Assembly (NCBI GenBank): GCA_902799185.1
Contig: CADBZO010000013.1
Span: 1-41,693 of the forward strand
Source of the DNA: an uncultured Bacteroidales bacterium
GTDB taxonomy: Bacteria > Bacteroidota > Bacteroidia > Bacteroidales > Paludibacteraceae
Direction: 5' to 3'
Length of the DNA stretch: 41,693 nt
Numbering within the stretch: position 1 is the first letter of the stretch; each line of letters starts with the position of its first letter. Both the position numbers and the translations under genes were made by a program. The notes beneath the pieces were generated by a model, which saw nothing but the letters and a program-made list of their open reading frames with translations, was not told the DNA's origin and ran no database searches. Positions 2,785 to 26,650 of the stretch are shown here, piece after piece.

Positions 2785-3288
2785 CTATATAGTAAACTGC
2801 GGCATATACGGGTTGGCAATAGAACCGAGTTGGGTATCATTGGCAAAAGCGAACGGTTCGGCGATAAAGATATTCTTCAATACCGATGAGTAGTATTTGA
2901 GCGTTATGTCCTCCCCTTTAGTCGGTGCACAAATATAGAGGAAGAACAATAACCCCTCTTCCTGCCCCCCGTCCCCCTGAAGGGGGAGGGGTTCTGCAAC
3001 TCCTACCAATTCGTCGCCGGAGAAGGCAGCAAGCATGTCGTCAGTTGATAGTTGATAGTTGACAGTTGATAGTTGCTCCGCCGTATAGCAGGAAGAAAGA
3101 TCTACCTTAATGACCGCAGTCATGGATGAGGCTAAGTCGTAGTTGGCAGGAGCAGTCCATGCCGGTTTTTCGGTAGAGCCTTGCAGGGTTTCGGGGGTGT
3201 TACCTTTCTTACAGCCAAAGAAGGTACAGAGGAACAGAAAAATGTACAAAGGTACGAAGTACGATGTACGAAGGAGATTCGTTTTCAT
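2785..3288 (-). CDS. Small lipoprotein related to the giant protein's C-terminal domain (cassette copy 1)
   Basis: 167 residues with a lipoprotein signal (lipobox FFGC, Cys about 26, followed by KK). The mature part begins 'SSMTAVIKVDL', continues to 'AAFSGDELVGVAE' and ends 'LGSIANPYMPQF'. The same order of motifs (MTxIxKV, AFSGDELVGIA, YFLTV, SLKAPIIL) is found near the C-terminus of the giant protein encoded upstream, so this is a lipid-anchored stand-alone copy of that domain. It is the fourth and last gene of cassette copy 1; its counterpart in copy 2 is at 14388-14828. A 7-base repeat tract (3043-3075) and a G/C palindrome (2953-2991) are inserted in frame, and the other copy lacks both. 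A third repeat tract lies in the signal peptide. Function unknown; it may bind or anchor the giant protein at the surface. Confidence 0.82.
   Translation of the reverse strand: MKTNLLRTSYFVPLYIFLFLCTFFGCKKGNTPETLQGSTEKPAWTAPANYDLASSMTAVIKVDLSSCYTAEQLSTVNYQLSTDDMLAAFSGDELVGVAEPLPLQGDGGQEEGLLFFLYICAPTKGEDITLKYYSSVLKNIFIAEPFAFANDTQLGSIANPYMPQFTI
2953..2991. repeat. G/C-rich palindromic repeat inside the lipoprotein gene
   Basis: CCCCTCTTCCTG, then CCCCCCGTCCCCC, TGA, and GGGGGAGGGG. It is read in frame as 'PLQGDGGQEEG', whereas the copy-2 lipoprotein has only 'PKEG' at the same place between 'GVA(E/S)P' and 'LFFLYI', which shows an insertion of about 24 bases or more. Confidence 0.7.
3043..3075. 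repeat. 7-base tandem tract AGTTGAT
   Basis: AGTTGAT, AGTTGAT, AGTTGAC, AGTTGAT, AGTTG in succession. The tract is translated as 'QLSTVNYQLST' just before 'AAFSGDELVG'. The giant proteins carry different repeat tracts at the same loop. Confidence 0.85.
3242..3274. repeat. 7-base-periodic tract in the signal peptide
   Basis: Imperfect units ATGTACA, AAGGTACG, AAGTACG, ATGTACG. The tract encodes part of the hydrophobic core of the lipoprotein signal (TSYFVPLY). Confidence 0.6.
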
Positions 3289-3309
3289 TGTTTTACTAAT
3301 TTTTTGTTT

Positions 3310-3429
3310 TTACCAAGCTTTTATTTGACTTTCTGCGCCTTTAACAGGCATATTATTGCTGCCAACGAGGACGGATGATTGCATTTGTACAGAAATTATT
3401 TCCGTACAGGGTTGTACATATTGTCTCAT
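3310..3429 (-). CDS. Tiny conserved cassette protein, MRxY type (39 aa, copy 1)
   Basis: A 39-residue reading frame beginning MRQYVQPCTEIISV and ending SQIKAW. Its ATG overlaps the stop of the LRR gene as ATGA (3426-3429). The counterpart in copy 2 (14849-14977) sits in the same place with the same ATGA junction and shares MR-Y--P--E---V, a central Ser and Asn-Asn-Met, and the final Ala-Trp. Conservation between diverged copies, the junction and the lack of any other explanation for the gap support a real gene. Bacteroidales have many unnamed proteins of 40-60 residues beginning M(K/R)xYxxPxxEV; their role is unknown to me. There is no signal peptide. A 23-bp palindrome (3386-3408) falls inside this copy. 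It could be a small structural or regulatory partner, or a precursor peptide. Confidence 0.75.
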   Translation of the reverse strand: MRQYVQPCTEIISVQMQSSVLVGSNNMPVKGAESQIKAW

Positions 3430-4661
3430 AATTTCTGTCCGTTTATGGAATATTTCTCTCCGTTTCTAATAATGATTATTTGTCCGTCATGAAGGATCTT
3501 GGCGCAATGCACATTATCCACATGCTCTGTCTCAATGCCGGTCGGTGTCGATTTGATACGCAGTGCGGCAGGCATGCCACGATAGAGGGGTGATTGGTGA
3601 TTGGTGATTGGTGATTGGTCACTGGAGATTTGGAAGTATGCGCGGAAGCCCAACATTTTGGCGTCCTCATCATCTCCGTCGGAGGGCCAGTAGAGTTCGT
3701 TTCCGCCGGCTAAGAAAAGGTTGCTATGGCTCTCGTTGTCATTGATGTGCGTTTTGCCGTAGAACCCGGCGTAACTCACGTCGCCTGTACCGGCGTGGGA
3801 GGCATTATTGTCTTCGTCCCAAGTGATGTCGGTGAAATGCATGAGCGTCAGCACTTCGCCTGTATTGTCCCACTGGATGAGGTATGGTGTTCCGGCAGAG
3901 ATGGTGTTTCCGACAAGCGGCGTGATATCGAGTTGCAACGCTCCATCCACGACCGCTGCGCCGGCAAACTCATAGACCTCCACGTTATCCCCGTCCAAAG
4001 GCGAACCGCTGAGGGACACGCTGAAAGGCAGCGTGAGGGTATTGAAGCAACCTGCCTTCCGCAGCGTACGGAAGATGTCGATGTCGGTTCGGGAGGCTGT
4101 CCGGAAGGCAGATATTTTGCCTTCGGTAGTAGTCTGTTCATCGTATTCGTCAAGAAAACAGAGATTTAGTTTTCCTCCATAACTGGTGTCCCAATCTGAA
4201 TAGTTGTACGCACTGAGCGCGGGTACGCAAATCTGCAAACTTGCGTTGCAACCCGTAAACGCATCTGTGCCCAATGTAGGCGGTGTCTGCGGACGGCAGA
4301 GCACGTTATGAAGGGCGGTACAACCATAGAATGCGTGCTCTCCGACTAAAGTAACCGAAGGCGGGATGACTACAGTTAGGAGGCCGGTACAATTCTCAAA
4401 TGCCTTCGTGTTGATCTCCGTCACATTATCCGGGATAATGACCTCTTGGAAACTCATCTCGGAGTTATAAAACGCCTGCGAATAAATCGTAGCCGCTTGC
4501 GTGGGGTCGGGTGAAGTGAGGACAAGCGTAGTGCCGTCCAGTTCGTACTCCAGGTTCGTACCGCAAGGAGTGCCTGCGATAGCACTGCCTACTGCCCCGA
4601 TGAGCAAGGCAGTAAGCAGCAGTTTATTGAAGTTTCTTACCTGTAATATCATATTTCTCAT
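3426..4661 (-). CDS. Secreted BspA-type leucine-rich-repeat protein (cassette copy 1)
   Basis: 411 residues. A signal peptide (hydrophobic core about 12-29, ending AIAG) is followed by BspA-like (LRR_5) repeats at about 65-135 (EVIIPDNVTEINTKAFENC, VVIPPSVTLVGEHAFYGC, and a degenerate third). Then comes a domain I know from many Bacteroidales LRR proteins (DIFRTLRKAGCFNTLTLPF, then AGTPYLIQWDNTG), and finally the tail 'KILHDGQIIIIRNGEKYSINGQKL'. It is presumably exported and displayed or released, perhaps as an adhesin. The start overlaps the end of the giant gene by 38 bp, which suggests coupled translation; a second Met four codons in would also overlap. A 7-base tract (3591-3625, 'DQSPITNHQSP') is inserted before 'LYRGMPAALRI' and is missing in copy 2. 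Confidence 0.88.
   Translation of the reverse strand: MRNMILQVRNFNKLLLTALLIGAVGSAIAGTPCGTNLEYELDGTTLVLTSPDPTQAATIYSQAFYNSEMSFQEVIIPDNVTEINTKAFENCTGLLTVVIPPSVTLVGEHAFYGCTALHNVLCRPQTPPTLGTDAFTGCNASLQICVPALSAYNYSDWDTSYGGKLNLCFLDEYDEQTTTEGKISAFRTASRTDIDIFRTLRKAGCFNTLTLPFSVSLSGSPLDGDNVEVYEFAGAAVVDGALQLDITPLVGNTISAGTPYLIQWDNTGEVLTLMHFTDITWDEDNNASHAGTGDVSYAGFYGKTHINDNESHSNLFLAGGNELYWPSDGDDEDAKMLGFRAYFQISSDQSPITNHQSPLYRGMPAALRIKSTPTGIETEHVDNVHCAKILHDGQIIIIRNGEKYSINGQKL
3591..3625. repeat. 7-base tandem tract TGATTGG
   Basis: Four units of TGATTGG followed by TCACTGG. It is in frame within the copy-1 LRR gene and absent from the copy-2 gene, which reads VNTSSPSSAP there. Confidence 0.85.
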
Positions 4662-7600
4662 TATTACGAATGATTACTACATGTTGATCTTCGATGATCT
4701 TATACGGACGGCTGGTCTCGCCGGGTTTCAGGATAATAGGAGCCTTTAACGAACCGTGATGGGCATCAGAGGTGTATCGTATAGGCTGCTCGGCACGAAG
4801 CGGGGTCCCATCTTCTGTTTCGAAGCGAAGTTCGTCAGCAAAGTCAGACGAAACCGTTAAGAAGTAGAGCGTTTCGTTGTTCAGTTCAATCGGCGTTGCG
4901 ATACCTACGAGTTCATCACCGCTGAACGCCTTAACTCCCTCATTCATTAATTCATTCCCTCCTTCAACCTTACAGATCATCGTCATGTTAGTTGCCGCGT
5001 TTCCATGGAAAGCCGGTGCTTGCTTCGGAGCGTTAGCAGCTTTATTGTAGAAGTTGATAGTGACAGAGTCGGCACCCATGCGGCGGAAGAGATATCCTTC
5101 TCCCGGACGGAAGGCGGTGAGGTCACCTACCCATTTCTTATCGGCAGAGAAGTACGCGAAGCGGTCGTGTGCCTTGATCAGGTCACCCACAGACGCATGA
5201 TCGTAATAGTCTGCTAAAGCCTCTGTGACAGGTGTCGATTGGTTGAGCAGACATGGGAGCGGACTCCATTGTCCGTTTCCGCGGAGCGTGACATGCATGT
5301 CTTTCTGCTCCAAAGGATCACCGCCGATGCGCAGGATATTACCGTTCTTGGCATATACCATGTACATCTGCTGATAGTCGAAGGCGGTGAGCGTACCCAT
5401 AAACGCATCTTTCACTTCCGAATAGGTGCAGAACTGCTGTGAAGCGGGGTTCTTGATGAGGTCCCCTTCCGCCCAAGGTCCTTCAGCAGACATGTGGTCA
5501 TTGATGAGCGTCGAATCCGGCAGGAGATTCAGGTTGAACGATATCCAGTTCCATCCGGTATTGAGCGCGATGTTCTGCGTCTGAGAACCGGAGGTTGTGA
5601 AGACGAGCGGTGTCGGATCACCACAACCATAGACGGCACCATGTGCGAAGGTAATCTTGCGACTCGGAGCGAGTTCAAGTATCTTGCCGGTTGATGCTTG
5701 CCAGAGTTGGAAGCGTATCTCCTTTTGATTCATGGCTTCGTTGCCGTGAACAGTCAGGAAGACTTCGGTCTTGCTGGTCAGTGCATCGAAGGCGATGTTC
5801 GCCATGCCAACGCACTCGTTACGATAGAGGGCAATGACCTTGTCGTTGGCATCCGTATCGTAAATATTGCCAATCTTCACTTCACCGCATACGGACATAT
5901 TAAGCGGATAGTTGTTCTTGTCCACCTCGTCGTACGGGCAGATAGCGGTTACGGTATATTCCACCAGCAGCGGTTCGCTCAGTCCGTTCTCGTCGGTGAG
6001 GTAGATATAGTCGGAATAAACACCCACCGGCATCTGTGCGTTGAATGTGAAGCGAACATTCTTGCTACTGATGGCATTGATAGCACCGTACGCTTCGCTG
6101 ACCGTGAGCCAATCCGGCAGGGACTCGATGACGAACTGATGCCGGAGTCCGGTCTGGTTGAAGAAGGCGAAGTCAACGTTATAATTCGGTTCGGATGCTG
6201 CGTTACCGGTGATGGGGTACAGAGCCTCGAACGCCAGTTCGTTGTCGTACCACTTGAGGGCATTGCGATCGACCGTAGCCATCCACATGACGGGTGACGG
6301 CATGGGGTTGCCGTTGAGGTCCTCTACATCGCGCACAGTCACGAGAACAGGTTGATGGTTGATTTCGTAGTCCGCCATGTTGAGGTTGACAAGCAGTTCC
6401 TCGTTGTTATACGTCCAGTTGAACTTCAGCTTGCTGAGCAGACCGATGCCGCTGACCGGAGCGTAGCTTGCCTTATCGGCCATGCTTTCGACTTTCGACT
6501 TTTGACTTTCGACTACCAAAGGCACCACTTTGTCCACTATGTTACCGTTTGCATCTTTGAAGATACGCTGGTCATTGACGGAGAAGACGAGTTCGAGTAC
6601 ACCGTTGGGGTTCTGGATCTGCTCTTCGAACGGCAGGTATGCCATCAGACCCATCTCATCACCAAGCGGTTTGCGTGAGCCGAACTCGGAGATGAAGGTC
6701 TTGGGCAGTGCTTGCTCGAAGACGATGAACTCGTCGATGTTTCCTTCAAAGCCGTCGCCACCGAAGTACATATCGCCGGCTATACCTGTCAGACGGTCCG
6801 CAGCAAAAGTGACTGTCAGTTGGTTGTCCAGATAGACGGCGATGTTGTTATACGTGCGGTTAACAACAAGCACGAGGTGATGCCAAGTTCCATTTATGAT
6901 TTGACGATTTACGATTGACGACTGATCTCCGTAGTAGAAGATGAGTTTGCCTTCTTCGAGGGCGAAGCGTTTGTCGCCGGCACGGAAGATCGTACCATTG
7001 CTGCTCGTCGGGCGGAACCATAACAAGTAGGTGGCGTCGTATGCGGCAGAGCGGGACAGTTTGTTGCGTTCAAGCGTTACGGTGTCGTTCTTGGTGAGGG
7101 CGAGCGAGATACCCTTCGGCAGGTTCCACGAAGCATTGTGCATCGTTAGCGTAGCACCGGAAGCACGGTCACGCAGTGTTGAGCCGGTGCCTTCGTTCAT
7201 GCGGTAGTAAGCCATCAGTTCGCGTTCGTAACCGGTGAGGTAACGCTGGTTGGTAACGGTGATCTCTTCCTGCGTCAGCGCCTTGGTCCAGATACGGGCT
7301 TCCAGGATGTTCCCTTCCAAACCGCGACCAAAGAAGAGTTGGGCGTTGCTGATAGCTGATAACTGATAACTGATTACTGACTGCGCTGCTGTCACGTCGA
7401 GTGTGCCGGCGTAGAAGCGGACGGCGCTGGAGTCGTTGTTGTAAGTGACAGCCACGCGTGTGAACTCAAGCATCCTGTCAGGTAACTGTTTAGAATAGAC
7501 GGTGCCGGAGTCACTCTGGAGGTAGAGACGGTTGTCGGCAGTCATACCGAAACGCAAGCCGTTCTCTCCATACGTAAAGAAGACGGCGGCCGCATTCGGG

Positions 7601-10600
7601 TTAGTCGGCTTAACCATCAGGTCGATGGTGAAGGAGCGGTTGGCGAGACTGCGGTTGACCATCGAAGCGGCGTATGAGTCGGCTGTGCCGTCGAAATGCG
7701 GCGAAGCGTCGGTAGTCGGACTGGTCTCATTGGTGATACCGATGAGTTGGAAGTTATTATCCTCGTCCAGCCAGTTACCGGCTATCGGTTCGCTGAAGCG
7801 CAGCTTGAGATGATCGCCAATACCTAAGATACTGTTGGCAGGTTCAGGACTGCCGAACACTACCGGCGGACGGGTATCCTTGACACCACTCATCACAGGC
7901 GAAGCTTTCGTGACAAAGCCCGAGCCGAAGCGGCAGAAAGTGACGGCACGCAGGTCATAGTTGAGTTCCTTCGGGTCGCGCTCGCCATAGAAACGGAACG
8001 GTACGATACGTCCGTTCTCGATCATGGCTTTGTTGCCCGAAGCGAGGTTGTACAGGCTGTCGTCGGCATAGAACGAACACTGATTCACCCATGCGTCATC
8101 GCTCTCCGTGGAGAGTTTGTACTGGAACTCGATATGGTCGAAGTTCTTATGGTGAATATCAAATCCGTCAATCTCAACAGGCAGGTAATAGCCGATAGAG
8201 TCATGCGGCGAGAGGGTGTTCATCACCCAGTTCTGACGCGGCGAAGTGATTTCTACAGGACTGGAAACCGGCAGGAAATGGACGGAGAAATTGAGGTTGG
8301 CGAACGTGATGGGACAATCGGCAAGGCCGAGGTTAAGCGTCAGGTTCTCATAGTCATCCACTGTTCCCCGCTCCACCTCCAGGGTCTTGGTGACAGGCAC
8401 GCCCGGCGTGAGGAAGAAGCCTATCGACTGCGTGAGCGGCTGACCGTCCATGGTGATACGTGCGCCGTTGGGGTTGGAGTTCGGATTGATGGACAGGTCG
8501 AACTGGTTACCCATAGCGGCACGGCCGGTCTGGAGCGAGGAGTTGTTCATCAGCGTCACATGGAAGACGGCGCGTTTATCCGGCATGACGGCACTCTGCT
8601 CGTAGGTATCGATCGTCATTTCGGGCTTGCATACCCACTGGGTCTCATTGCTGATGACCGTTCCGGGGTTGTAGAATGTCGTTTTCTGTTCGTCCTCATG
8701 CGGGCAGTAGGTCGAACCGGCTACGGTATAGAACACATACGAGCCGTAGAGCAGGTCCGGATCATTGCTCGGTACACCCACCTTGTCACGTGTCACTGCC
8801 GTGGTGTCGCGCCAAACGCTGTCGGTGCGAGCACGATAGACAGCTACGGTCAGGTCACCCATGTTATCCGAATTGAGCGAGAAACCGCAGTTCTTCGTGA
8901 CGGTCTTGGCATGGTTCTTGTCGTAATTAGGCATATAATACGTAGTGGGTTCGATATTGAACATGAACTTCGACGCGTTGGTCTGCGAACCCATCTCCTG
9001 TATCTGGTTCTCTCTGGTGCGAGTTTGATCGCCCGGATCGTCCTGGATCTGCGATATATCCCCTATCTTATCCAATGCCGACTCCACCGTCTCGCCTATC
9101 TTATCCTTACCCATCGTACCGAAGAAATTGGCGATGCTCTGCCAGCTGGACGCTAATTGCGAAGCAGCTAACGTAGCGCTGGAGGCTTGCTGCTGACCCC
9201 ACAGTTTGGCGGACTGCGGCAGTTCGTTGTAGGCTGCGGTGGAAGCATATACATCGGAATGTGTGAAGCTGGCTCCGGCACTGATAGAATAGGTGCCTAC
9301 CTCCGTACTCGAACCCGCCATACGGGCGTGTACTTTCTCCTTCTCGTTGCCGTAGAGTATAGCTATCCACTGGTATATCATGTTATCCAGCGCAGCAATA
9401 CGGTTGGTATAGACTTGGTCGTTATCCGGACAGATCATCTTGTACGAACCTTTCTTGATGGAATCGGTAGCAGCCGTCCGGTCGACGTTGCCGATATTCC
9501 AATAGACGGGTTCTTCCGTAGCGTTCGCATAAGCCTGTGCCTCCGCCGAGTCAGCGAAGTTCATCAGCAGGTTGCTGCGCTCGATAGCCAGTTTCGGAAT
9601 GATACTGTTGATCACGTAGTCCTGCGTGTAGGCGAAAGTATTGTTGACCTTCGATCCTAAGGCAGTCTTTTGTCCGGTGACAAGGTAATACTGCTTGCCG
9701 TCAGCGGCCGCACCCGAACCGAGCACCTTCATGATGCTGGCGTTGATAGCCGGTTGACGCACCTGGAAGAGGCTGTCGGAGATGACGGCTACGGCGTTGA
9801 ACCGACCGGCCAACTGACTGATAGTCGTTCCGTAGAACACATCGGCGGGGGCACCTACATCCTGCGGCATCATACCCGGAGAAGTGGAGATACGGTTGTC
9901 GGTAGTGACGGTGTAGTTGTACATATATCCCCAACTCCAGTCATGACTGATAGGAATAGGAATAGAGAGCAGACGCGAGGTCTCGAAATTCGAACCCAGG
10001 TACGTACCGGCTCCTTGAGGAGCGGACACTGTACCTATATTCTGCGTCACCTTGACTCCTCTCATCAGTGTGATGTCTACACCCATATTCCAGTAGAAAC
10101 TTTCACTATAGCCGAAGGTGTATGTCGAACCGGCATCTACCCAGGCTGTCGAACCCATACCGGCAGGGTCACGGATGATATCGAGCAGTACGATGGAACT
10201 CTCTGTATCGGTGAGGTTACCGCTCTCGAAGTCCACACCGCTGACGAAGGCGCTGAAGACGGTGGTCTCTACGGCCGTTCCTTCTGTTTTGAGCAGTGTG
10301 CTGACGTTGCGTAGGGCATTCGTGCCGCTGTTGTTGACGTCTATCTGATCTACCGTAAGCCATACAGCGCGGTTCTCACCTTTCTCGTCGAGCGCGAACT
10401 GCAGCGTGTCCATCTGGCTATGCAGACCATTATGGATAGTCACTTCGCCGCCGCGTTGTGCCACGCGATCGACGACGCCGCCGTTGCGGTTGTTGTTATA
10501 GAAATACTCTTCATACGCCCGTGCCACGAACTGGTACTTACGTCCGCTGAGGAAGACAGGATAGCCCATCAGATAGTTAACCGTTCCGTTCTCTTGCACC

Positions 10601-14346: not shown

Positions 14347-14387
14347 ATATGTGTTGTTTTTTATTTCCTGTCAATCTTATAGGGTTG

Positions 14388-14828
14388 CTATTCCCATACA
14401 GGAACGAAAGGTTCGGCGACGGTGCCCAGGTGGGCATCGTTGGCGAAGGTGAAGGCATCCTTCGCCTCGAAGAAGTTCTTGTAGTGCGCGGAGTAGTAGC
14501 GGAGTGTGACGGCGCCTTCCGTTCCTGCTATATACAGGAAGAACAATCCTTCCTTAGGTGAAGCAACACCGAGGCAGGTTTCGCCGTTGAAGGCGGCAAG
14601 CAAATCATTGTCGTTCAGTTGCCAATCGGAAGCCTTTTCAGGGTACTGTGCCTTCAGATCCACCTTGACCACAGCGGTCATTGACGAGGTCATATCGCCC
14701 GCTTCAGGCGCCGTCCAAACAGGACGCGCTTGGTCTGAAATAAATGTTTCCGGTTCGTCTTTCTTGCAGCCAACTAAAGTACAAAGGGACAAAGTACAAA
14801 GTAAAAAGATATACAAATGTTTTTTCAT
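14388..14828 (-). CDS. Small lipoprotein related to the giant protein's C-terminal domain (cassette copy 2)
   Basis: 146 residues from the ATG at 14828; a GTG at 14852 would add eight residues, but the ATG gives a normal lipoprotein signal (MKKHLYIFLLCTLSLCTLVGC). The mature part runs 'SSMTAVVKVDLKAQY', 'DLLAAFNGETCLGVA', 'LFFLYIAG', 'LGTVAEPFVPVWE' and matches the copy-1 lipoprotein (2785-3288) along its length without that gene's repeat insertions, so it is close to the uninterrupted form. It is the fourth gene of cassette copy 2 and lies only 41 bp before the giant gene of copy 1, so the two cassettes are probably cotranscribed. It is presumably an outer-membrane or surface lipoprotein; function unknown. 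Confidence 0.82.
   Translation of the reverse strand: MKKHLYIFLLCTLSLCTLVGCKKDEPETFISDQARPVWTAPEAGDMTSSMTAVVKVDLKAQYPEKASDWQLNDNDLLAAFNGETCLGVASPKEGLFFLYIAGTEGAVTLRYYSAHYKNFFEAKDAFTFANDAHLGTVAEPFVPVWE
14776..14804. repeat. 7-base-periodic tract AAAGTAC in the signal peptide
   Basis: AAAGTAC, AAAGGGAC, AAAGTAC, AAAGTAA. It encodes the signal-peptide core 'LLCTLSLCTL'. The copy-1 lipoprotein signal carries a different tract at the same place. Confidence 0.7.
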
Positions 14829-14848
14829 ATTCTTGTTGTTTTTATGGG

Positions 14849-14977
14849 TCACCAGGCATCTACTTGATTTGCGCCCTTATTGTCAATGTGCATGTTATTG
14901 TTTCCACTGGTGCTGAGAATGGAAACAGACGGAAGTACAGGCAGCACTTCTACACGGGGTGAAATATACTTTCTCAT
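14849..14977 (-). CDS. Tiny conserved cassette protein, MRxY type (42 aa, copy 2)
   Basis: A 42-residue frame beginning MRKYISPRVEVLPVLPSVS, with a central SGNNNMH and ending NQVDAW. Its ATG overlaps the LRR stop as ATGA (14974-14977), exactly as in copy 1 (3310-3429). Shared features are MR-Y--P--E---V at the start, Ser and Asn-Asn-Met in the middle, and Ala-Trp at the end. No signal peptide, no cysteine, one Trp as last residue. The spacing to the next gene (lipoprotein ATG at 14828) is 20 bp. It is probably translationally coupled to the LRR gene. Function unknown; candidates are a small partner of the secreted proteins, a regulator or a peptide precursor. Confidence 0.78.
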   Translation of the reverse strand: MRKYISPRVEVLPVLPSVSILSTSGNNNMHIDNKGANQVDAW

Positions 14978-16209: not shown

Positions 16210-19200
16210 TGTTTCTGATAATTACTACATGGTTATCCTCGATAATCTTGTACGGACGGTTATCGCCGGGACGCAGGATGACCGGAGCCTTGAGCAAGCC
16301 GTGGTGCGCGTCGGAAACATAGGAGATTGGCATCTCACTCGTTAACGGTGTACCTTCTTCGGTCTCAAAACGGAGCGTACCGGCTGCATCGGACGAAACC
16401 GTCAGGAAATACAGGCTGTCTATCTTCGTGGCTACGCCAACGAGTTCGTCGTCGATGTAAGCATTCACCTTTGTACATTGTACATCGTCACTCGCAACTT
16501 GACAGATCATCGTCATGTTGGTAGCAGCATTGCCGCTGAACTTCGGTGCGTGTTGCGGAACTGCATTAGTGACCTTGTTGAAGAACTTGATCTCCACATC
16601 GCCCTGTCCCATGCGGCGGAAGAGGTATCCTTCACCCGGGTAGAGTGCGGTGAGGTCGCCGACCCATTTCTTGTCAGACGAGAAGACGGCGAACCGGTCA
16701 TGACTCTTCAGCAGGTCGCCTACTGTAGCATGGTCGTAGTAGTCTGCCATAGCTTCTGTAATCGGTGTGCTCTGGTTGAGCAGACATGGCATCGGGCTCC
16801 ATTGACCATTGCCGCGCAGCGTCACGTGCATCGAGTCTTCCGGCAGTCGGTTGCCACCGAGCCGCAAGGTGTTGCTTGAGGCGGCATAAACCATATATAC
16901 CTGCGTATAATCCCACGCGGAGAGTGTACCCATGTACATATCCATCGTTTCGGAATAGGTGCTGAACTGCATCGTCGCGGGGTTTTTGATGATGTCGCCT
17001 TCTTTCCACGGTTCAGCCGCCGTCATGACGCTGTTGAGTGCAGCCGTTGCGGGTTGCAGGTTGAGATTCGTGGATATCCAGTTCCATCCGGCATTAAGGG
17101 TGATGTTTTGCGTCTCTGACCCCGATGAGGTAAAGACTACAGGTTGTTCTTCACCGCATCCATAGACATATCCGTGTGCAAAGAGTATCTGACGGTTCGG
17201 CGCAAGCATCAGCACCTTGCCGGTAGAAGCCTGCCATAGTTGGAAGGTAATTGCCTTGTTGTTCATAGCTTCGTTACCATAGACAGTCATATAAACCTCC
17301 GACTTGTTGGTTAGATTGCTAAATGCCACATTCGCCATACCGACGCACTCGTTGCGGTAGAGGGCAATAACTTTGTCATCGCTGTCTGTGTCGTAAAAGC
17401 CGTCAATGATAACTTGTCCGCAAATGGACATGTTGAGCGGATACTTGGATTTCTCGGGTTCTTCATACGGACAATGTGCTTCCACGTACATGATGACTTT
17501 CAGCGGTTCGGAAAGACCGTTCTCGTCAGTTACATAGACTAAATCGGTGTATGTGCCGACAGGCAGCGTAGTATCATAGGTAAATCGGACGGTATAGTCG
17601 TCAATCGGTTGGATTGTTCCATAAGACTGATTGACGGTCATCCATTCGGGCAAGGACTCGATGGTGAACTGGTGGCGTTTGCCGCTGTTGTTGACGATGC
17701 GCATATCGCGATAGTTGTAGTTGTCAAACTCCGAACCATAGGTTTGCCATAATTCCATTGTCCGGCTATCCCAAGTCAGACTGTTGCGGTCCACGTATGC
17801 CACCCACGTTACCGGCGAAGGCATCGGGTTACCGTTGAGATCCTCCACGTCACGTACGGTGACATAGATAGTCTGCTTGTTGATCTCGCGGTCTTGCATA
17901 AGTAGGTTGATGAGCAGTTCGTCTTGGTTGAATGCCCAGTCGAAATTGAGGTTCGATAGCAGCGCGTTGCCTGCCACAGGAGCATAGTTTGTCTTGTCAG
18001 CCAGATTGGTGATTGGTGATTGGTCATTGGTAAGGATGAGCGGCACTATTTTTTTGACCACATTACCATTGATGTCCTTGTAGATATGTTGGTCGTTGGG
18101 ACTGAATACCAATTCAATGACATTGTTGGCATTGAGTTTCTGTTCCTCGAACGGCAGGTATGCAATCAGTCCCATCTCGTCTCCAACGGGCGAGTGGTTG
18201 CCGAACTCCTCGATGAGCGTTTTAGGCAGTGCCTGCTCGAAGATGGCGAACTCATCAATGTTTCCTTCAAAGCCGTTTCCGCCGAAGTACATTGCTCCGG
18301 TGATACCAGCCAGTTCGATGGCAGCAAAGGTGGCAGTCATTTTGCCGTCAAGGAATACTGACACGTTATTATAAGTACGGTTAACAGAGAGCGCAAAGTG
18401 GTGCCATTCGTTATCCTTTATTTGCCCGACAGAGGTTATCAATTGGTCGGAGTGCAGCACGAGGTTTCCGTCCACTAATGTCAGCAGTGTACCTATTGAG
18501 TCATTGGCTCTTCCGGCGGAGAAGATGTCTCCTGTATTGCTTGTTGGGCGGAACCAAAGCATCAGCGTCTCGTCATAAACCTTAGAGCGTCCGAGCAGGT
18601 TACCGTTGAGTTGAACGCGCTCTCCGCTATTGATGGCAAGTGAAATGCCTTTGGGCAGATTCCACGTGGCGCCATGTAATGTGAGCGTAGCACCTCCGGC
18701 TTTGTCGGTAAGTTGCGTCCCATGCCCTTCAGCCATCTGATAGTACGCCACGAGTTCGAGCTCGTAGCCGGTGAGATAGTGCATGTTGGTGGCGGCTACT
18801 TCTTCCTGTGTGAGGGCTTTCGACCACAGACGCAGTTCGAGCATGTTTCCGTCAAGTCCACGTCCGAACACGAGCGGTGCGCTTACATCATACGTCGTAC
18901 CTGCCGGCAACTTAGCGGCATTAGGGTCAGTCATATCCATCGTACCGGCGAAGAAGCGTATCTCGTTGGTCTCGTTGTTATAAGTGACGCACACGCGGGT
19001 GAAGTCGAGCATCGTATCGAGCGGCTTGGAGTAGATTTGCAACGTACCAAAGCCGACCATTAGGCGGTTGTCGGCGGTCAGTCCGAAGCGCACGCCTGTG
19101 CCGTCAGTACCATGTTCAAAGAAAGTATGTTCTCTGTTGGCGGCTGTTGGTTTAACGAGCATATCGAGCGTGAACGAGCGTCCGCTGAGCGAGCGGCTCA

Positions 19201-22200
19201 CTTGCGAGATAGCATAGGACTCTGCAGTGCCGTCGAAGTGGACAGACGCAGCGGTGGTGATACCCGTGGCGTTCGTCACACCTTTGATTTGGAAGTTATT
19301 GTCGGGATCAAGGTAGTTGCCGGCAATTGGTTCGTTGAAGCGTAACTTGAGGTTGTCGCCCACGCCAAGGATGGCATTCACCGGTTCTGGTTCGCCAAAG
19401 ACGCGCGGCGGACGTGTGTCTTTCGTTCCGCTGATGACAGGTGAGGACTTTGTTACGAAGCCCGACCCGTAGCGGCAAAAGGAAACGGCGCGCAGGTCGT
19501 ATTGTTGCTCCATCGGGTCACGCTCGCCATAGAAACGGAAAGGCTCAATGCGTCCGTTGCGTATCATTGCCTTGTTACCTGTTGCAAATTGATAGAGACT
19601 ATCGCTTGCGTAGAATGAACATTGGTTAACCCAATCGTCTTCAGATTGTGTTGAGAGTTTGTATTGGAACTCTATATGGTCGAAGTTCTTATGGTGAATA
19701 TCAAACTCGTCGATTTCCACAGGCAGGTAGTAACCAACAGAGTCGTGTGCGGAGAGGGTGTTCATAATCCAGTTCTGGCGCGGCATAGAGATAGACACAT
19801 CGCTGGATACCGGCAAGAAATGCACGGAGAACTTCAGCGTAGTATTGGTCTTTGGACAGTCTGCTAACGAGAGTGCGAGTGTGAGATTGTTGTAGTCATC
19901 GACTGTACCACGTTCTACTTCAACTGTTTTTACCACTGCCTGTCCGGGAACCAAGAACACCGGTATAGCATTGATAAGCGGTGCACCGTCCACGTACACT
20001 TTTGCGCCATCGGGGTTGGAGTCCGCCCACAGTGCAAAGTTAAACAAAGTGCCGCTTGCGCCTAATCCCGTCTGCACTTGTCCGTTGTCCATCAGCGTAA
20101 CACGGAAAGTGGCTCGCTTGTCAGGTTGAACGCCCGTCTGCTCGTAGGTGTCGATTGATATTTCGGGTTTGTCAACCCACTGTGTTTCGTTGTTCAGTAT
20201 CGTACCCTCGTTGTAGAACTGCGTTTTCTCTTCTGCTTCGTGTGGACAATAAGTACTTCCTGCTACGGTATAGAATACGTACGAGCCATAGTGGAGGTCA
20301 TCGTTATCGGCTTCGCCTACATTCTCACGAATAAACTCTGTACGCGTGTCCCATACACTGTCGTATGGCGCGCGATAAACGGAAACGGTGATGTCGCCGT
20401 GACTATCTGCTCCAAGAGTGAAACCACTCGTCTTCTTGACCGTCTGCTCTTGTGCCAAATTCATATTGTTATCATAGGAGAAGATAGGATTGTAGTCAAG
20501 TGAGAACTTTGACGTGTTGGTTTTTGTGCCGAGCGACTGTTGTTCTTCTCTGTCGGTCGGGTCTGCTCCAACACCTTGTCCTTCCGGACGTGCTAAACCG
20601 TTGATGGCTTGTGCAACCGTGGTACCAATCTGGTCTTTGCCCATGTCTTTGAAGAATTTGACTATGTTCTTCATATCTTTGAGCAGTTTCTGTCCGACTT
20701 TGGCGCTGTTGCTTGACCAATAAGACCCCACAAGGTCACCGCCTTGTGGCATCTCATTGTATTGCGCAGAAGCGTTATAAGTATCAGTGTGAGTGATGGT
20801 TGCACCACTGCTTACTGACCATGTACCAACCTCTGAACCAGCCATACGTGCCATCACTTTCTCTTTCTCGTTCTGATAGAGAATAGTAACCCACTGCGTA
20901 ATCATATTATCCAATGCTGCAACGCGATTGATATAGGCATGGTCGGAATTGGTTGGTGTCAACATCTTGTAGGTGTTGTATGGCAGAGAGTCAATAAGAC
21001 TTACCTTGTCGTCAGACGAGTAATACCAATACACAGGCTCGCCTGTTTGGTCGGCATAGGCTTGAGCTGCCTCTTCACTGTCAAAATTCATAAGTAGGTT
21101 TTGACGCTCTAATGCAAGTTGAGGTATGAGAGTATTAAGGATATAATATTGTGTATAGACGAATGTGCCTGCCACAAGTGAACCGAGCACAACCTTCTGA
21201 CCTGTAACCAAATAGTAGTGTTTGCCGTTGGAGTCTGTACCCTGTGAGAGTATTTTCATCAGTCCGGCATTGAAGGCAGGCTGACGTGCGATGAACATAC
21301 TATCGCTGATGATGCTGACTGTCTTGGCTTTACCGGCTAACTGTCTTATGGTAGTGCCGAGGAAGACATCGCCATTACTGCTCACATTATCTTTGGCTTT
21401 GCTACTGCTGGTTGAGATACGGTCGGTGGTGGTAAAGGTATAGTTGTATTTATACCCCCATTTCCATTCATGCGTGATAGGAAGTGTGAAGCTTAGTTGG
21501 CGGCTGCTCTCGTATGTTGAACCAATATATGAACCTGCGCCTTCGGGTGCTGCCACAGCACCAATGTCCTGCGAGACGTTCACACCCCATTTGGGGGTCA
21601 GTTCGACACCTATTTTCCAATCGTAAGTTTCGGTGTATGTGTAGTTGTAGGTTGTACCGCTTTCGACCCATGCTGACGAGCCGTTGCCTCCCGGGTCGCG
21701 AACTATATCGAGCAACACTACTTCACTATCTGCTGAGGTCAGGTCGCCGTTCTGTATGTCAGTGCCACTGACAAAGGCTTGGAACACTTCTGTTTCCACA
21801 TAGTTGCCTTCCACTTGCAGGGCGGTACTGACAGTTCTGAGAGCGCTCTCGCCACTATTCTCCGTGTCGATATCCTCTACTTCGAGTAAAACCGACTTGT
21901 TCTGTCCTTTGCTGTCGAGGGTATAGTCTTGATAGGTGGTTGCAGATTTGAGTCCGTTATGCACTCTGACACTTCCGCCACGCTGCGGCACTTCGTCTAA
22001 AACACCCGACTGCGGGTCGTTGTTGTAGTAATAACGCTCAAACGCCTCTGCTATAAACTGATATTTACGATTAGCAATGAAAACAGGGTGTCCAAGCAGG
22101 TAAGTAACCGAGCCATCCGACTGTTTTTCATATAGACTTACTTTCTGTTTGTCCTGCAGGTTCAGACTGCTCACTTCCATCTCTTCCTCACCGTAGCCGG

Positions 22201-25200
22201 CTTTGTCCAAACCATACAGCACCTGTTTGAGAGTTACTACTACGGGCGAGTGATAGATGCGGTCATAGACAGCGTTGTAGTGGATTGAATCACCATCTAA
22301 CAAGCCACCTTGAGAGGCAATACCGCCGGTATAAGGATAGTTAGAAACAAATTGCTCGTCGTTTGATTTTTGTACCACTGTTATTGTTTCGGCTGTCTTA
22401 TTGCATTTGCCTATATATTCGGTCAGAGGCGCATTAGTGAGGTCGAAGGTCTCGGAGCCTTGTCCGGTACCAAACAACGTAGCATAGCCGGTGGCTGTTG
22501 CCTGAATGACTTTGTATTTTACAGGGAAAAGGTCGACCTCAAACTCACCCGTTTCCGAGTCAGGGTGAATAGTGATGCGCTTTTTCTCAAAGAGCGTGTG
22601 GGTCGTACCGACTATGCGTTCTTTGTTAACTGCGAGCGAGTCGGTCAGATAGACGATGTGGGAAATGGTCTGTTGTATAGTGTCTCGTGAGAGGTCATCA
22701 GGGTCGTGGACGAGTTGCGCTGTATTGTCGCCCTCGAGTTGCAGCACGAGTTGCAGGTCGTCTCCGAGGTTGTTGGTTCCTAAACCGAAGCCGCGAGGCA
22801 AGTCGCGCTGGTCGTTACCGCCGGCTACGCGTCCTACAAGTCTAACTTTGGTCTGGTCGTAGAAACGCACACCGTCAAGTGCTTTAGCAAGCGCAAACTC
22901 TTCTTCTCCATCTTCCACTTGCAGGATACCATCGCCCTCGAACACGTGTCCGGGTTTGAACACTTGCAGTCGGCAAGGTTGGTGCAATGGCAGTATCAAC
23001 TCAAAATTGCCGTCAATACCACTTGTAAGCGGCGTGTTGCCACGACGCACCGTGTCGCCGTTTAGCAGGAACATTGCTCCGGCAACAGGGATAGTGCTGT
23101 TTTTGTATAACACTCTACCTGTGAGCCTCGTGGAAGAGGTGTTCATAAAGTCTATTCCCGAGGCGACAGCATTGTTTGTAGATAGCGAAATGCTTGCCGT
23201 TCCGGCAGAGGAGCTGTTGAAAGAGAATGTACCATACTGGTGTGTCGGTACGACGACATAACTTGATTGCTCTGTGTTTGTACATTGACATGATGTCGGT
23301 TCAGTAGCCGTTACTTTGAAACTATAGTTATAGTTCGAGCCGCTTTTAGTCCTTTGATAGTTGCAATCCACGGAGAAATGTCCGCTAACGTCAAAAGTGC
23401 TAATACCACCTGAAATATCAGGGAAGATGGATTGCACTTGCAAAACCGTGCCTACCGCATATTCGTAAGTACCTTCATCCTTGCTGTTCCAATCTTCCAA
23501 CACATTTCCGTTTGCGTCTAACACACGGAACTGAGTCTGTTTTTCCGGGGCATAGATACTGAAATTATAGGAGTAAGTGATTTTGACCTTCGCCTTTTCG
23601 CACTCCAAGGCGGCGTACTCCAAACTATCGAACTTATATGCTCCGCTTGCGTTGGTAGTCATGGTGCGTATTGTATTGCCGCTGCCGTCTTGCAGTGCGA
23701 CCGTTACGCCTGCCATGCCGGTGTTGTCGGGCATAAGTATAGTACCGCTTATTTCTCCGTATGGAGTGCGCCAACCCTCTGCAGTAGCGTAGTTGCCTGT
23801 GCTCTTGCCGTTGCACACATACTGCGTCTGTATGGTATATTCGTAGTGAGTATTAGGTATTGCGCTACGGTCAATATAACTATTGTCGGTACCGTGATAG
23901 ATCGTGTCAGCAGCCTCGTCGCTACCCACTGCCTTGCGCAGTAGTATATATTCGTCCACTGCATTACTGCTTGCCTGCCAACGCAGAAGCACACCTGATT
24001 TCATTTCTGTTGTTGCATCGCCCTGTGAGGCTACAAAACTTGTTATTGTGGCAGCCTCGTCGAAATAGAGCGACGGACCGCTTATCTCTATCGGACGTAA
24101 AGAAGCAGAGTCTTGCACGTGCAGGTCAGAACGCGATTGGTCAATTCGAATACTATATTTATAATGTGAGCACCCTTGGTTGGCAATGTCGCTATAGGTG
24201 GCAATCCATGAGCCATCAGCCTGACGGCGAATGCTGTCCTGAGGAATGATGAACTCCATCGTCTGCCCTGTTTCCTCGATTGTGCGCAGAAGGATGAGTT
24301 GAGCCGTCTTGTCCCACATACAACGACCATAATCTTCCGGTTTAACCTCACGAGGCATCAGTTTAATCAAGCTGTCTTTAACAGTGTATAAGAGGTTGCG
24401 TATCTCTGTTGCCACATTTTCGTCAACTTGCGATTGCGATGCTTTTACCATTTGGGCATCTAATTTGCGCTTGCCGCTTTGCGGATAGGCGTAGATGGTT
24501 ATCTCGCACGATTCAGTGAGAATAAACGGCATGTAGAAAGTCCACTCAAAGTTTCCGTCTTCGTTGTTGTAGATATCCATACGACTATTTTTCGGGAACT
24601 GGTACCAACCCGACAATAAGTACCTGCCTTGTGTATAATTCTTACCGTCTTTGGTGACAGAATAAGTAGTTCCGTTTTCCGGACTTGCCACATCGCCTTG
24701 CACTACATACTTAACATATACCTCCACATATTCGGAATCGTCAGTAGTAATAGAGGCTACGGTGTTTGATGATTGCACCGTGAATGTTGCTTCGAACATC
24801 GATGCGCCATGTGCAAAAGGTTCTGTCGAACAATCAATTACAGTATTACCGGTCAAGGTGTGTCTGCTTTCTTCGCCATTGTTGTAGCAATAGCCGTGAG
24901 TGTTTTTTACCTGTACGGTACTGTTCATCGGGAATTGATAAGTACCGGCATTAAGATATGTCCAATCTTGATACACACTACCATTTGCCGTTACCACTCG
25001 AAAACAAGTACTTCCTTCGGGATTAACCTTGTTGTAATCAGCTTCCAACATTGAGTATTTGATGGTTACGTTAACCATAGATTCTCTGAGCACTTTGTTG
25101 ATATAGCACGACAATGTACAGTCATCTTTGTCGATAACGGCTCCGGTCGGTTCTTTATTCTCTATCTTGAAACGGAAATTAACCCTGCGATTATTTTCAT

Positions 25201-26650
25201 AGTCAGCATCGAGGGTATATGGCTCTTGATTGTCAGCAAGCGGTGCAAGGAAATTCATATTCTGAAGCGTAGCCGTATGCACAAATTCGCTATCCCACCC
25301 CCATACAGATGCCGAAGCCCGGCGCACACGATAGAAAACGGGAACGGACGGCATCAGGATATGGTTAGACATCAGCTTGACGCTCAATTCAGCCAGTGGC
25401 TCATTGTTGGTATCATATAGCGTATAATGTGGGTCTGATACATTGTAATACCTTTCATCATACACCACATCCTGCGACTGAGCGTTGCCCGTCCAAGAAC
25501 TTCGGTCGCTGTCGGTGTAGGTATAAACGCCCGATGAGTCGCGCTTCATCTGCACAATACTGATACGCTGTGCATCGCTAAAGTCGCTCTGCATAGCACG
25601 TTGCAACTCAAAATAGTCACCATCTAAGATGTCTTTCAAGAAAGGATTTTTGATTGACCACCGAAGGATATTATTGCCGGTGAAGGTTCCGGTGCTGTCT
25701 TTTTCTGTCCTTGCAGCAAAGTTATAAATGCGGTGATAAGGCAGAATATCAACATCGGTGGTAGTTACCTCCATCGTTGATTCAGTGTCAGCATTGCGCA
25801 CCACGGTGAAAGTGGCAGTGAGGTTTTTCTGCACCGTGTCGTTGGTCGGTATATAGATAGTACCAGAACGCTCAACATCCCTTGACACCACTTCTGACGG
25901 ATTGAACGAAGTGTAGTAACTGACGGGGTCTTGAAACACCATGTACGGCACTGCTGCATAGCCATAACCTGCCACACCCTTCTCGTTAAAAGTATATAGA
26001 TATGGGGTGTATAATTGCGGTGATATAGTGTTTGTCTTACATGTCAGGTTACTTGCAAGCGTCCAAGAATAGTTATACCATTCATTCTTAGACTTCGACC
26101 AGCGAATAGACACTGTTATACCTACGCTGAAAGTATCTTTTTCTAAAGATATAGGCGGATACCAATCCAACTCAAGGAAGGTAACATGGTCGTTGCCGTC
26201 TGCCTCTTTCTGAACTACTATCAGCTTGTCAGACATAGTGCCATTGTCGTGAATATGATGGTTGACACCATTTGCCATCGAGGTAACGATGATGTCGCCC
26301 ATGCCGTTTAATAGTTTGACGTGGGCTGTACCTTTGTCAGAGTCTTTCTCGTTTTCGTCATACGGATCGGAGCAGAAATTGGCAAAGGTAGTTTTGGTAT
26401 CACTACCTTTTTTTTGATACCAGATGGTACTTGACTCGTGGATATAGAAGTCGTAACTCTTTCCATACGCCCATACCGGCAGGACGAAATGTACACGATC
26501 TACTCCGGTCGGGTAGGCTTTGTAATGATCCTCTTTCTCCAAATAGTCATTAGCATACGCACCCTGCGGAGTGAACCACAAGGCACATAACATCAGCAGT
26601 GCGCCACATCCCTGTAGCCACCGACTTTTGGTGTTCGATAATAGTTTCAT
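16172..26650 (-). CDS. Giant secreted LamG-domain protein, 3492 aa (cassette copy 2)
   Basis: Paralogue of the 3240-aa protein at 4624-14346, alignable over nearly its whole length. Signal peptide at about residues 13-33 (GALLMLCALWFTPQGAYA). Then the same N-terminal region with 'FYRVRRASASVWGW', a fibronectin-like segment (868-907), carboxypeptidase-regulatory-like domains (about 965 and 1173), SbsA-like Ig, two LamG domains (about 2465-2607 and 2673-2800), 'GWNWIS', the 'DDELVGVAT' domain and the tail 'KIIEDNHVVIIRNNEKYDVTGKKL'. The extra length is mainly a beta-rich module seen three times (about 525-628, 638-723, 1020-1120), the last one splitting the first carboxypeptidase-like domain. 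It is first in the cassette run, 104 bp after preA. No clear promoter was found upstream, so transcription may come from preA. Likely a surface adhesin or matrix protein. Confidence 0.88.
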   Translation of the reverse strand: MKLLSNTKSRWLQGCGALLMLCALWFTPQGAYANDYLEKEDHYKAYPTGVDRVHFVLPVWAYGKSYDFYIHESSTIWYQKKGSDTKTTFANFCSDPYDENEKDSDKGTAHVKLLNGMGDIIVTSMANGVNHHIHDNGTMSDKLIVVQKEADGNDHVTFLELDWYPPISLEKDTFSVGITVSIRWSKSKNEWYNYSWTLASNLTCKTNTISPQLYTPYLYTFNEKGVAGYGYAAVPYMVFQDPVSYYTSFNPSEVVSRDVERSGTIYIPTNDTVQKNLTATFTVVRNADTESTMEVTTTDVDILPYHRIYNFAARTEKDSTGTFTGNNILRWSIKNPFLKDILDGDYFELQRAMQSDFSDAQRISIVQMKRDSSGVYTYTDSDRSSWTGNAQSQDVVYDERYYNVSDPHYTLYDTNNEPLAELSVKLMSNHILMPSVPVFYRVRRASASVWGWDSEFVHTATLQNMNFLAPLADNQEPYTLDADYENNRRVNFRFKIENKEPTGAVIDKDDCTLSCYINKVLRESMVNVTIKYSMLEADYNKVNPEGSTCFRVVTANGSVYQDWTYLNAGTYQFPMNSTVQVKNTHGYCYNNGEESRHTLTGNTVIDCSTEPFAHGASMFEATFTVQSSNTVASITTDDSEYVEVYVKYVVQGDVASPENGTTYSVTKDGKNYTQGRYLLSGWYQFPKNSRMDIYNNEDGNFEWTFYMPFILTESCEITIYAYPQSGKRKLDAQMVKASQSQVDENVATEIRNLLYTVKDSLIKLMPREVKPEDYGRCMWDKTAQLILLRTIEETGQTMEFIIPQDSIRRQADGSWIATYSDIANQGCSHYKYSIRIDQSRSDLHVQDSASLRPIEISGPSLYFDEAATITSFVASQGDATTEMKSGVLLRWQASSNAVDEYILLRKAVGSDEAADTIYHGTDNSYIDRSAIPNTHYEYTIQTQYVCNGKSTGNYATAEGWRTPYGEISGTILMPDNTGMAGVTVALQDGSGNTIRTMTTNASGAYKFDSLEYAALECEKAKVKITYSYNFSIYAPEKQTQFRVLDANGNVLEDWNSKDEGTYEYAVGTVLQVQSIFPDISGGISTFDVSGHFSVDCNYQRTKSGSNYNYSFKVTATEPTSCQCTNTEQSSYVVVPTHQYGTFSFNSSSAGTASISLSTNNAVASGIDFMNTSSTRLTGRVLYKNSTIPVAGAMFLLNGDTVRRGNTPLTSGIDGNFELILPLHQPCRLQVFKPGHVFEGDGILQVEDGEEEFALAKALDGVRFYDQTKVRLVGRVAGGNDQRDLPRGFGLGTNNLGDDLQLVLQLEGDNTAQLVHDPDDLSRDTIQQTISHIVYLTDSLAVNKERIVGTTHTLFEKKRITIHPDSETGEFEVDLFPVKYKVIQATATGYATLFGTGQGSETFDLTNAPLTEYIGKCNKTAETITVVQKSNDEQFVSNYPYTGGIASQGGLLDGDSIHYNAVYDRIYHSPVVVTLKQVLYGLDKAGYGEEEMEVSSLNLQDKQKVSLYEKQSDGSVTYLLGHPVFIANRKYQFIAEAFERYYYNNDPQSGVLDEVPQRGGSVRVHNGLKSATTYQDYTLDSKGQNKSVLLEVEDIDTENSGESALRTVSTALQVEGNYVETEVFQAFVSGTDIQNGDLTSADSEVVLLDIVRDPGGNGSSAWVESGTTYNYTYTETYDWKIGVELTPKWGVNVSQDIGAVAAPEGAGSYIGSTYESSRQLSFTLPITHEWKWGYKYNYTFTTTDRISTSSSKAKDNVSSNGDVFLGTTIRQLAGKAKTVSIISDSMFIARQPAFNAGLMKILSQGTDSNGKHYYLVTGQKVVLGSLVAGTFVYTQYYILNTLIPQLALERQNLLMNFDSEEAAQAYADQTGEPVYWYYSSDDKVSLIDSLPYNTYKMLTPTNSDHAYINRVAALDNMITQWVTILYQNEKEKVMARMAGSEVGTWSVSSGATITHTDTYNASAQYNEMPQGGDLVGSYWSSNSAKVGQKLLKDMKNIVKFFKDMGKDQIGTTVAQAINGLARPEGQGVGADPTDREEQQSLGTKTNTSKFSLDYNPIFSYDNNMNLAQEQTVKKTSGFTLGADSHGDITVSVYRAPYDSVWDTRTEFIRENVGEADNDDLHYGSYVFYTVAGSTYCPHEAEEKTQFYNEGTILNNETQWVDKPEISIDTYEQTGVQPDKRATFRVTLMDNGQVQTGLGASGTLFNFALWADSNPDGAKVYVDGAPLINAIPVFLVPGQAVVKTVEVERGTVDDYNNLTLALSLADCPKTNTTLKFSVHFLPVSSDVSISMPRQNWIMNTLSAHDSVGYYLPVEIDEFDIHHKNFDHIEFQYKLSTQSEDDWVNQCSFYASDSLYQFATGNKAMIRNGRIEPFRFYGERDPMEQQYDLRAVSFCRYGSGFVTKSSPVISGTKDTRPPRVFGEPEPVNAILGVGDNLKLRFNEPIAGNYLDPDNNFQIKGVTNATGITTAASVHFDGTAESYAISQVSRSLSGRSFTLDMLVKPTAANREHTFFEHGTDGTGVRFGLTADNRLMVGFGTLQIYSKPLDTMLDFTRVCVTYNNETNEIRFFAGTMDMTDPNAAKLPAGTTYDVSAPLVFGRGLDGNMLELRLWSKALTQEEVAATNMHYLTGYELELVAYYQMAEGHGTQLTDKAGGATLTLHGATWNLPKGISLAINSGERVQLNGNLLGRSKVYDETLMLWFRPTSNTGDIFSAGRANDSIGTLLTLVDGNLVLHSDQLITSVGQIKDNEWHHFALSVNRTYNNVSVFLDGKMTATFAAIELAGITGAMYFGGNGFEGNIDEFAIFEQALPKTLIEEFGNHSPVGDEMGLIAYLPFEEQKLNANNVIELVFSPNDQHIYKDINGNVVKKIVPLILTNDQSPITNLADKTNYAPVAGNALLSNLNFDWAFNQDELLINLLMQDREINKQTIYVTVRDVEDLNGNPMPSPVTWVAYVDRNSLTWDSRTMELWQTYGSEFDNYNYRDMRIVNNSGKRHQFTIESLPEWMTVNQSYGTIQPIDDYTVRFTYDTTLPVGTYTDLVYVTDENGLSEPLKVIMYVEAHCPYEEPEKSKYPLNMSICGQVIIDGFYDTDSDDKVIALYRNECVGMANVAFSNLTNKSEVYMTVYGNEAMNNKAITFQLWQASTGKVLMLAPNRQILFAHGYVYGCGEEQPVVFTSSGSETQNITLNAGWNWISTNLNLQPATAALNSVMTAAEPWKEGDIIKNPATMQFSTYSETMDMYMGTLSAWDYTQVYMVYAASSNTLRLGGNRLPEDSMHVTLRGNGQWSPMPCLLNQSTPITEAMADYYDHATVGDLLKSHDRFAVFSSDKKWVGDLTALYPGEGYLFRRMGQGDVEIKFFNKVTNAVPQHAPKFSGNAATNMTMICQVASDDVQCTKVNAYIDDELVGVATKIDSLYFLTVSSDAAGTLRFETEEGTPLTSEMPISYVSDAHHGLLKAPVILRPGDNRPYKIIEDNHVVIIRNNEKYDVTGKKLQ
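16466..16494. repeat. 7-base-periodic tract TTGTACA
   Basis: Units TTCACCT, TTGTACA, TTGTACA, TCGTCAC. The tract is translated as 'SDDVQCTKVN' in the loop before 'DDELVGVAT' of giant 2, homologous to the tracts at 3043-3075 and 4935-4963 but with an unrelated unit. Confidence 0.65.
18004..18031. repeat. 7-base tandem tract GATTGGT
   Basis: GATTGGT three times, then CATTGGT. It is translated as 'NDQSPITN' before 'LADKTNYAPV' in giant 2; giant 1 carries CTTTCGA repeats there. The unit is related to the TGATTGG tract of the copy-1 LRR gene. Confidence 0.85.

Follow-up and report, generated by a model that had tools for sequence, protein, structure and literature searches.

Layout of the locus

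The window, by which we mean the whole stretch of 41,693 nucleotides that was analysed (contig C13 of the host genome, G000), comes from an uncultured Bacteroidales bacterium of the Paludibacteraceae, the genome of which is a 2.43-Mb draft in 55 contigs that is 86.7% complete. Its minus strand carries two head-to-tail copies of a four-gene cassette, at 26650-14388 and 14346-2785, in which all the ORFs are found at the positions claimed by the initial annotation and, as the ORF listing confirms, follow each other in the same order in both copies, that is, a giant protein, an LRR protein, a tiny MRxY protein and a lipoprotein (LIPO). Copy 1 consists of giant 1 (16172..26650, minus strand, 3492 aa), LRR1 (14974..16209, minus strand, 411 aa, a BspA-type LRR protein of the LRR_5 kind with a giant-like short tail), MRxY peptide 1 (14849..14977, minus strand, 42 aa) and LIPO1 (14388..14828, minus strand), in which a lipobox Cys followed by KKDE precedes a single domain of the D1/D2 type described below. 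The LIPO1 ORF could possibly start at a GTG at 14852, the ATG at 14828 being likelier. Copy 2 consists of giant 2 (4624..14346, minus strand, 3240 aa), which has the layout of giant 1 minus its variable inserts, LRR2 (3426..4661, minus strand, 411 aa, also a BspA-type LRR protein), MRxY peptide 2 (3310..3429, minus strand, 39 aa) and the lipoprotein LIPO2 (2785..3288, minus strand).

The junctions match as well, since a 38-base overlap between the giant and LRR frames and an overlap of the LRR stop with the MRxY start each occur twice. The copies have diverged, with identities of 59% for the giants across the full alignment (43-61% in the BLASTP pieces), 62% for the LRR proteins and 49% for LIPO, and since they are homologous, the repetition of the cassette is not due to chance. 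An intrinsic-terminator-like hairpin followed by a T-run (2671..2705, minus strand) is visible by eye where a terminator had been described, although it escaped a strict scan, in which the 41 bases separating the copies were free of terminator-like sites on the minus strand. A near-identical MAG contig (RUG456, locus L011) has the same tandem order as far as its cut end, with giants sharing 97 and 99.6% protein identity with those of the window; its LIPO1 (L011:18424-18813) is in two pieces, with ORFs of 76 and 52 aa. Elsewhere in the window are an M4 thermolysin-type metallopeptidase (35505-37592), the short tail of which, read in a near-identical copy of the gene in L011 (700-2787), is of the giant/LRR kind, a DUF5675 gene (1050-1520) and a small gene (269-655) with relatives near giants in L023 and L024.

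A domain shared by giant and lipoprotein

Giant 1 starts with a leader (recognised by eye) and has, over the Pfam cut-offs, a CarboxypepD_reg match at aa 967-1011 and two Laminin_G_3 stretches, the best at aa 2679-2810. These are followed by two LIPO-like domains, D1 (about aa 3060-3185) and D2 (aa 3371-3457, 16280..16543, minus strand), and by a short C-terminal tail; in giant 2, D2 is at 4732..5007 (minus strand). Giants in the family, which are mostly 3,000-3,500 aa, are conserved over most of their length. In an alignment of 66 giants, variable inserts fall, in giant 1 numbering, near aa 526-750 and 1051-1125, and conservation is higher in the C-terminal part than in the N-terminal third. 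The host genome encodes further giants on contigs C1, C46 and C51.

Profile comparison indicates that LIPO is homologous to the two domains near the C-terminal end of the giants. A profile of 44 LIPO sequences compared with the alignment of 66 giants gave probabilities of 99.2% for D1 and 99.1% for D2, while 20 of the 22 giant chunks that served as controls remained below 4% and the other two, which overlap D1, gave 97.4% and 19%. In a pairwise BLASTP comparison, both LIPO match the end of giant 2 at aa 3115-3205 (E 3e-5 and 1.5e-6). LIPO has no Pfam match at E 0.1, and its predicted structure is a β-sandwich for which no significant structural match was found, the weak matches including some to carbohydrate-binding modules. 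In ten chosen genomes, nine of which contain LIPO-profile matches (E up to 0.001), this type of domain hardly occurs outside giants and their partners. Thirty-five of the 36 matches lie within giant-size ORFs or partner ORFs (counting two in a 2151-aa ORF of G501, a putative giant judging by its size), the remaining one being a signal-peptide-only match in a 361-aa ORF. Two loci encode lipoproteins with repeated LIPO domains, four in tandem in one case (L070:2770-4245) and several in tandem in a 493-aa ORF in the other (L135:3309-4787).

The recurring unit is a gene pair

A search of the family for the giant returned matches in 65 of 200 genomes and 16 of 33 genera. The loci compared comprise 20 named ones, three stretches of the host genome and 60 stretches around giants chosen from that search (a subset of the matches). 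Giant ORFs cut at the 3' end and those shorter than 500 aa were left out, as were one ORF of L039 and the two of L026, which is broken; the 81 giant ORFs that remained form 67 groups at 95% identity over the last 400 aa. Of the 67 groups, 41 have LIPO downstream of the giant, on the same strand and no more than 1.5 kb away, 23 lack it there (among them the host-genome giants on C1, C46 and C51), and three have a flank shorter than 1 kb. The gap between giant and LIPO is -95 to 247 bases in 37 groups and 1319-1356 in the four that have LRR in between. In L113, which is outside the 67, LIPO sits directly on the giant end with the same overlapping start.

The converse test used 20 further LIPO-type matches, chosen from a family search with the LIPO profile. 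A giant end is upstream of LIPO in ten of them (L118, L121, L125, L126, L128-L132 and L135), there is no intact giant upstream in six (L116, L119, L120, L122, L123 and L124), one of which (L120) has a short tail-like ORF upstream of LIPO, and in four the contig end or a run of N leaves the matter undecidable (L117, L127, L133 and L134). Across the 200 family genomes, the LIPO profile matches 73 at E 1e-6, many of these matches being inside giants, and the giant part matches 65 at E 1e-20. The recurring unit is a pair, a giant and a small LIPO downstream, which is carried by gut and rumen bacteria.

LRR and MRxY genes are found between giant and LIPO in only four of the 67 groups, corresponding to the two copies in the window, L014 and L048/L049/L050 (MRxY was read in the window, L014, L048 and L049). 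Of the proposal in the initial annotation that four products work together, what stands is that giant and lipoprotein belong together (41/67), and what lacks support is a four-gene unit kept whole (4/67): giants regularly lack the LRR and MRxY genes, and about a third of the groups lack the lipoprotein, which is the outcome that the annotation itself had named as refuting its proposal. LRR and MRxY look like local additions in a slot that elsewhere holds another gene or none. In L125, this slot is occupied by a gene for a protein of 217 aa that has an InlB-type repeat and ends in the same short tail. In L012, the LRR-MRxY-LIPO genes are placed ahead of a giant. L114 (G169) has a giant-LRR-MRxY-LIPO cassette and then another giant, which differs from the first and is preceded by a gene of its own for a 370-aa protein.

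Both LRR proteins of the window match LRR_5 (PF13306) with 59.1 and 60.7 bits (cut-off 27.7), and consist of one LRR stretch, a Pfam-blank region and the short tail common to the giant. The MRxY profile is strong on the cassette copies; its other matches in the host genome, five in number, are weak (E 0.002 to 0.4). The starts of other short ORFs of this genome weakly resemble MRxY...AW peptides. MRxY-like starts are seen as well in the 370-aa proteins preceding other giants (L038 2810-3922 and L114 5903-7015).

Similar pairs extend to other families of the phylum. A giant-core profile matched 11 of 395 phylum genomes (host genome included) at E 1e-15, and in 12 distant loci taken from nine of the other ten, a LIPO-domain protein is encoded directly downstream in six (L101 and L103-L107) and there is no LIPO-domain partner in six (L102 and L108-L112). 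The partner in L104 is a window-like 137-aa lipoprotein, that in L107 has two domains, and those in L105 and L106 have four. A Por_Secre_tail is over the Pfam cut-off in the partner of L105 and below it in that of L107.

Age of the copies and mosaic loci

The initial annotation described the locus as a tandem duplication, and a recent event of this kind is rejected by a tree of 66 giants in which giant 2 falls outside a clade that unites giant 1 with giants from other genera (support 0.94). Giant 1 shares 74.0% identity with the giant of L012, 73.6% with L015, 73.1% with L025, 67.8% with L013, 65.6% with L045 and 61.4% with L022 (which is in its clade), compared to 62.9% with giant 2. This branching suggests that the two copies are either old paralogues or were assembled side by side through transfer.

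Mosaics are found in neighbouring genomes. In L014, where the surroundings are those seen in the window, there is only one cassette, with DNA that is 91-100% identical to copy 1 over about 8.5 kb, 84-87% over the next 1 kb, 62-68% to both copies over about 2 kb and then 90-100% to copy 2. This may be an assembly chimera, the genomes being drafts. L049 shows 52-73% DNA identity to both copies outside two exceptional 500-base steps, at the giant end and LRR start, where identity to copy 2 reaches 95 and 87%. The DNA of the short giant tail is near-identical in the window, L113 and L125, and could be a crossing point for recombination.

Export and location

The host genome has the translocon of type IX secretion. 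An SprA profile is over the cut-off in two adjoining ORFs on C8 (G000:C8:90734-98015, of 1762 and 884 aa, which a frameshift in the draft may have separated), and nine of 11 Por_Secre_tail matches are over the cut-off. The type A C-terminal domain (PF18962/TIGR04183) was undetected in giants 1 and 2, including when the last 300 aa of giant 1 were scanned alone. The ends of two relatives were scanned, with a Por_Secre_tail found in the giant of L045 (29.7 bits, cut-off 27) and no match to this domain in that of L022. Giant 1 ends in 'RNNEKYDVTGKKLQ', which we read as the first half of the Por_Secre_tail-type tail of its relatives. The window giants are probably exported to the surface, where they may act as adhesins.

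As for the lipoprotein, a script heuristic (as opposed to a dedicated signal-peptide predictor) picked a lipobox-fitting Cys in all 44 LIPO sequences, in 27 of which two or more of the residues at +2 to +7 are acidic. In the passages of PMC5080379 devoted to such signals, K-(D/E)2 is a defined surface-export signal in Capnocytophaga canimorsus, while SDDDD is a proposed one in Bacteroides fragilis. Several LIPO signals (e.g. CSDDDDD and CKDDDD) resemble the signals given there, and LIPO of a distant clade within the family (L081, L085 and L090, for example) match this type. In the window, LIPO1 (CKKDE) fits the consensus and LIPO2 (CKKGN) does not, and at the genus level many LIPO signals are Lys-rich, not acidic. 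LIPO of the distant clade have, by eye, a coiled-coil-like stretch after the anchor, and one of them (L093) has sub-threshold Pfam matches only. LIPO may be exposed at the surface, and the role there that was initially proposed, with the lipoprotein as an anchor, fits.

How the pair might work

The interpretation that we favour, to which we give a probability of roughly 0.45, is that the giant is a type IX secretion (T9SS) cargo and LIPO its cognate surface dock. The core would be a two-gene surface system, in which LIPO would present, at the outer membrane, a further version of the domain found twice near the C-terminus of the giant, and would serve as the giant's dock or cap through domain-to-domain contact at the cell-proximal end of the giant. 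The LRR and MRxY products would be optional extras, encoded in the slot between the two genes, and the loci would diversify through recombination, which would account for the mosaics in neighbouring genomes. With the end domain of the giant repeated on a lipid anchor, the two look like a self-matched pair for anchoring.

The two partners vary together. Distances between LIPO track those between giants (r 0.89 for 46 pairs, a value reached by none of 2000 permutations), although correlations of this kind are confounded, since phylogeny and physical linkage can also yield them. In 41 pairs, the simple correlation with LIPO is 0.84-0.86 for the C-terminal third of the giant and 0.66-0.82 for other parts, the LamG part (0.862) being the highest and above D2 (0.842), while in partial correlation D2 is the highest (0.58, others 0.42-0.49). 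Several observations speak against a dock, that is, (i) about a third of the groups are without LIPO in cis, (ii) there are orphan LIPO, (iii) half of the distant loci are partnerless and (iv) the tail of the window giants is no recognised T9SS signal. A more ambitious version, which we regard as a tentative and somewhat doubtful extension, is a self-paired surface system, found across several families of Bacteroidota, in which a T9SS giant and its separately exported twin would dock homotypically, thereby holding, capping or chaining giants, with swappable genes in the slot and reshuffling through the short-tail DNA.

Two other explanations, which we consider unlikely and about equally so, deserve to be weighed. 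The coupling of the giant and LIPO genes and the homology of their domains would also fit if LIPO were a chaperone or gate facing the periplasm, which would use its D1/D2-like domain to hold the giant while it is exported, with no anchoring outside. The Lys-rich signals of many genus-level LIPO would suit such a location, but those that resemble surface-export signals in the passages of PMC5080379 just mentioned (CSDDDDD, CKDDDD) do not, nor does the partner in L105, which would act outside, given its T9SS tail. Alternatively, LIPO might be an independent surface binder (e.g. of glycans), working in parallel with the giant on the same ligand without contact, in line with the β-sandwich model and its weak matches (some to carbohydrate-binding modules), the LamG within the giant and the orphan LIPO loci. 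This is difficult to square with adjacency to a giant in 41 of 67 groups and with a domain that is nearly confined to the pair in ten genomes.

It is far less probable that giant and LIPO are an antagonistic toxin and the matching immunity protein, which a huge gene followed by a small one and orphan LIPO genes elsewhere could bring to mind. Polymorphic toxins have a hypervariable C-terminal region and a conserved N-terminal part, and they are disfavoured here by the opposite trend in the giants, the C-terminal end of which is conserved rather than swapped, with variability peaking near aa 526-750 and 1051-1125. Pfam revealed no toxin domain in the giants, and LIPO is homologous to the giant, which is unusual for an immunity protein and its toxin. 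Slightly less probable still is that the four products form one structure and that the cassette was duplicated whole. Order and junctions are kept in the two copies, L011, L014 and L048-L050, and LRR-MRxY-LIPO remain joined in L012, against which stand the presence in four groups of 67, giant 2 branching outside the clade of giant 1 and other-genera giants, and the mosaics.

Relation to known systems

A dock returns us to cargo of the T9SS, which is held at the surface by A-LPS linkage or by pairing with PorP/SprF, at least in the parts of three accounts that deal with this (PMC9143113, PMC12618676, PMC10202324). According to the same parts, type B cargo has a co-encoded PorP/SprF partner (SprB-SprF, PG1035-PorP), which is proposed to anchor or shuttle the surface cargo encoded next to it. 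The giant gene is likewise next to that of a proposed cognate partner, and our docking proposal follows the logic of a PorP/SprF partner beside T9SS cargo, with a different part. That part is a small Pfam-blank lipoprotein homologous to the end domains of the cargo, not a PorP/SprF-family protein: when LRR and LIPO were scanned against Pfam (E 0.1), LRR matched LRR_5 only and LIPO nothing. Moreover, the tail recognised in a relative is of the type A family (PF18962), unlike that of type B cargo. The giants resemble type A cargo (PF18962/TIGR04183) in that the orthologous giant of L045 has such a tail and the host has SprA, but the tail in the window giants is shortened and Pfam-undetected, and what PMC10202324 says of type A cargo includes, in the parts that concern it, no mention of a co-encoded lipoprotein twin.

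The accessory and anchoring components have their own known counterparts. Both LRR proteins resemble BspA-type LRR surface proteins in being over the LRR_5 cut-off, but they differ from them by their single LRR stretch, Pfam-blank region and giant-type short tail. LIPO resembles surface lipoproteins with an export signal, as described in the relevant part of PMC5080379, by its lipobox and by the acidic residues after the Cys in many relatives, but only LIPO1 of the two in the window fits and the domain is Pfam-blank.

The giant-LIPO pair was not found in print by a literature search, the coverage of which excludes most subscription journals. Its Pfam-blank domain is a marker for finding such systems across Bacteroidota, and if our favoured interpretation is true, T9SS cargo could also be held at the surface in a further manner, by a lipid-anchored copy of the end domain of the giant.
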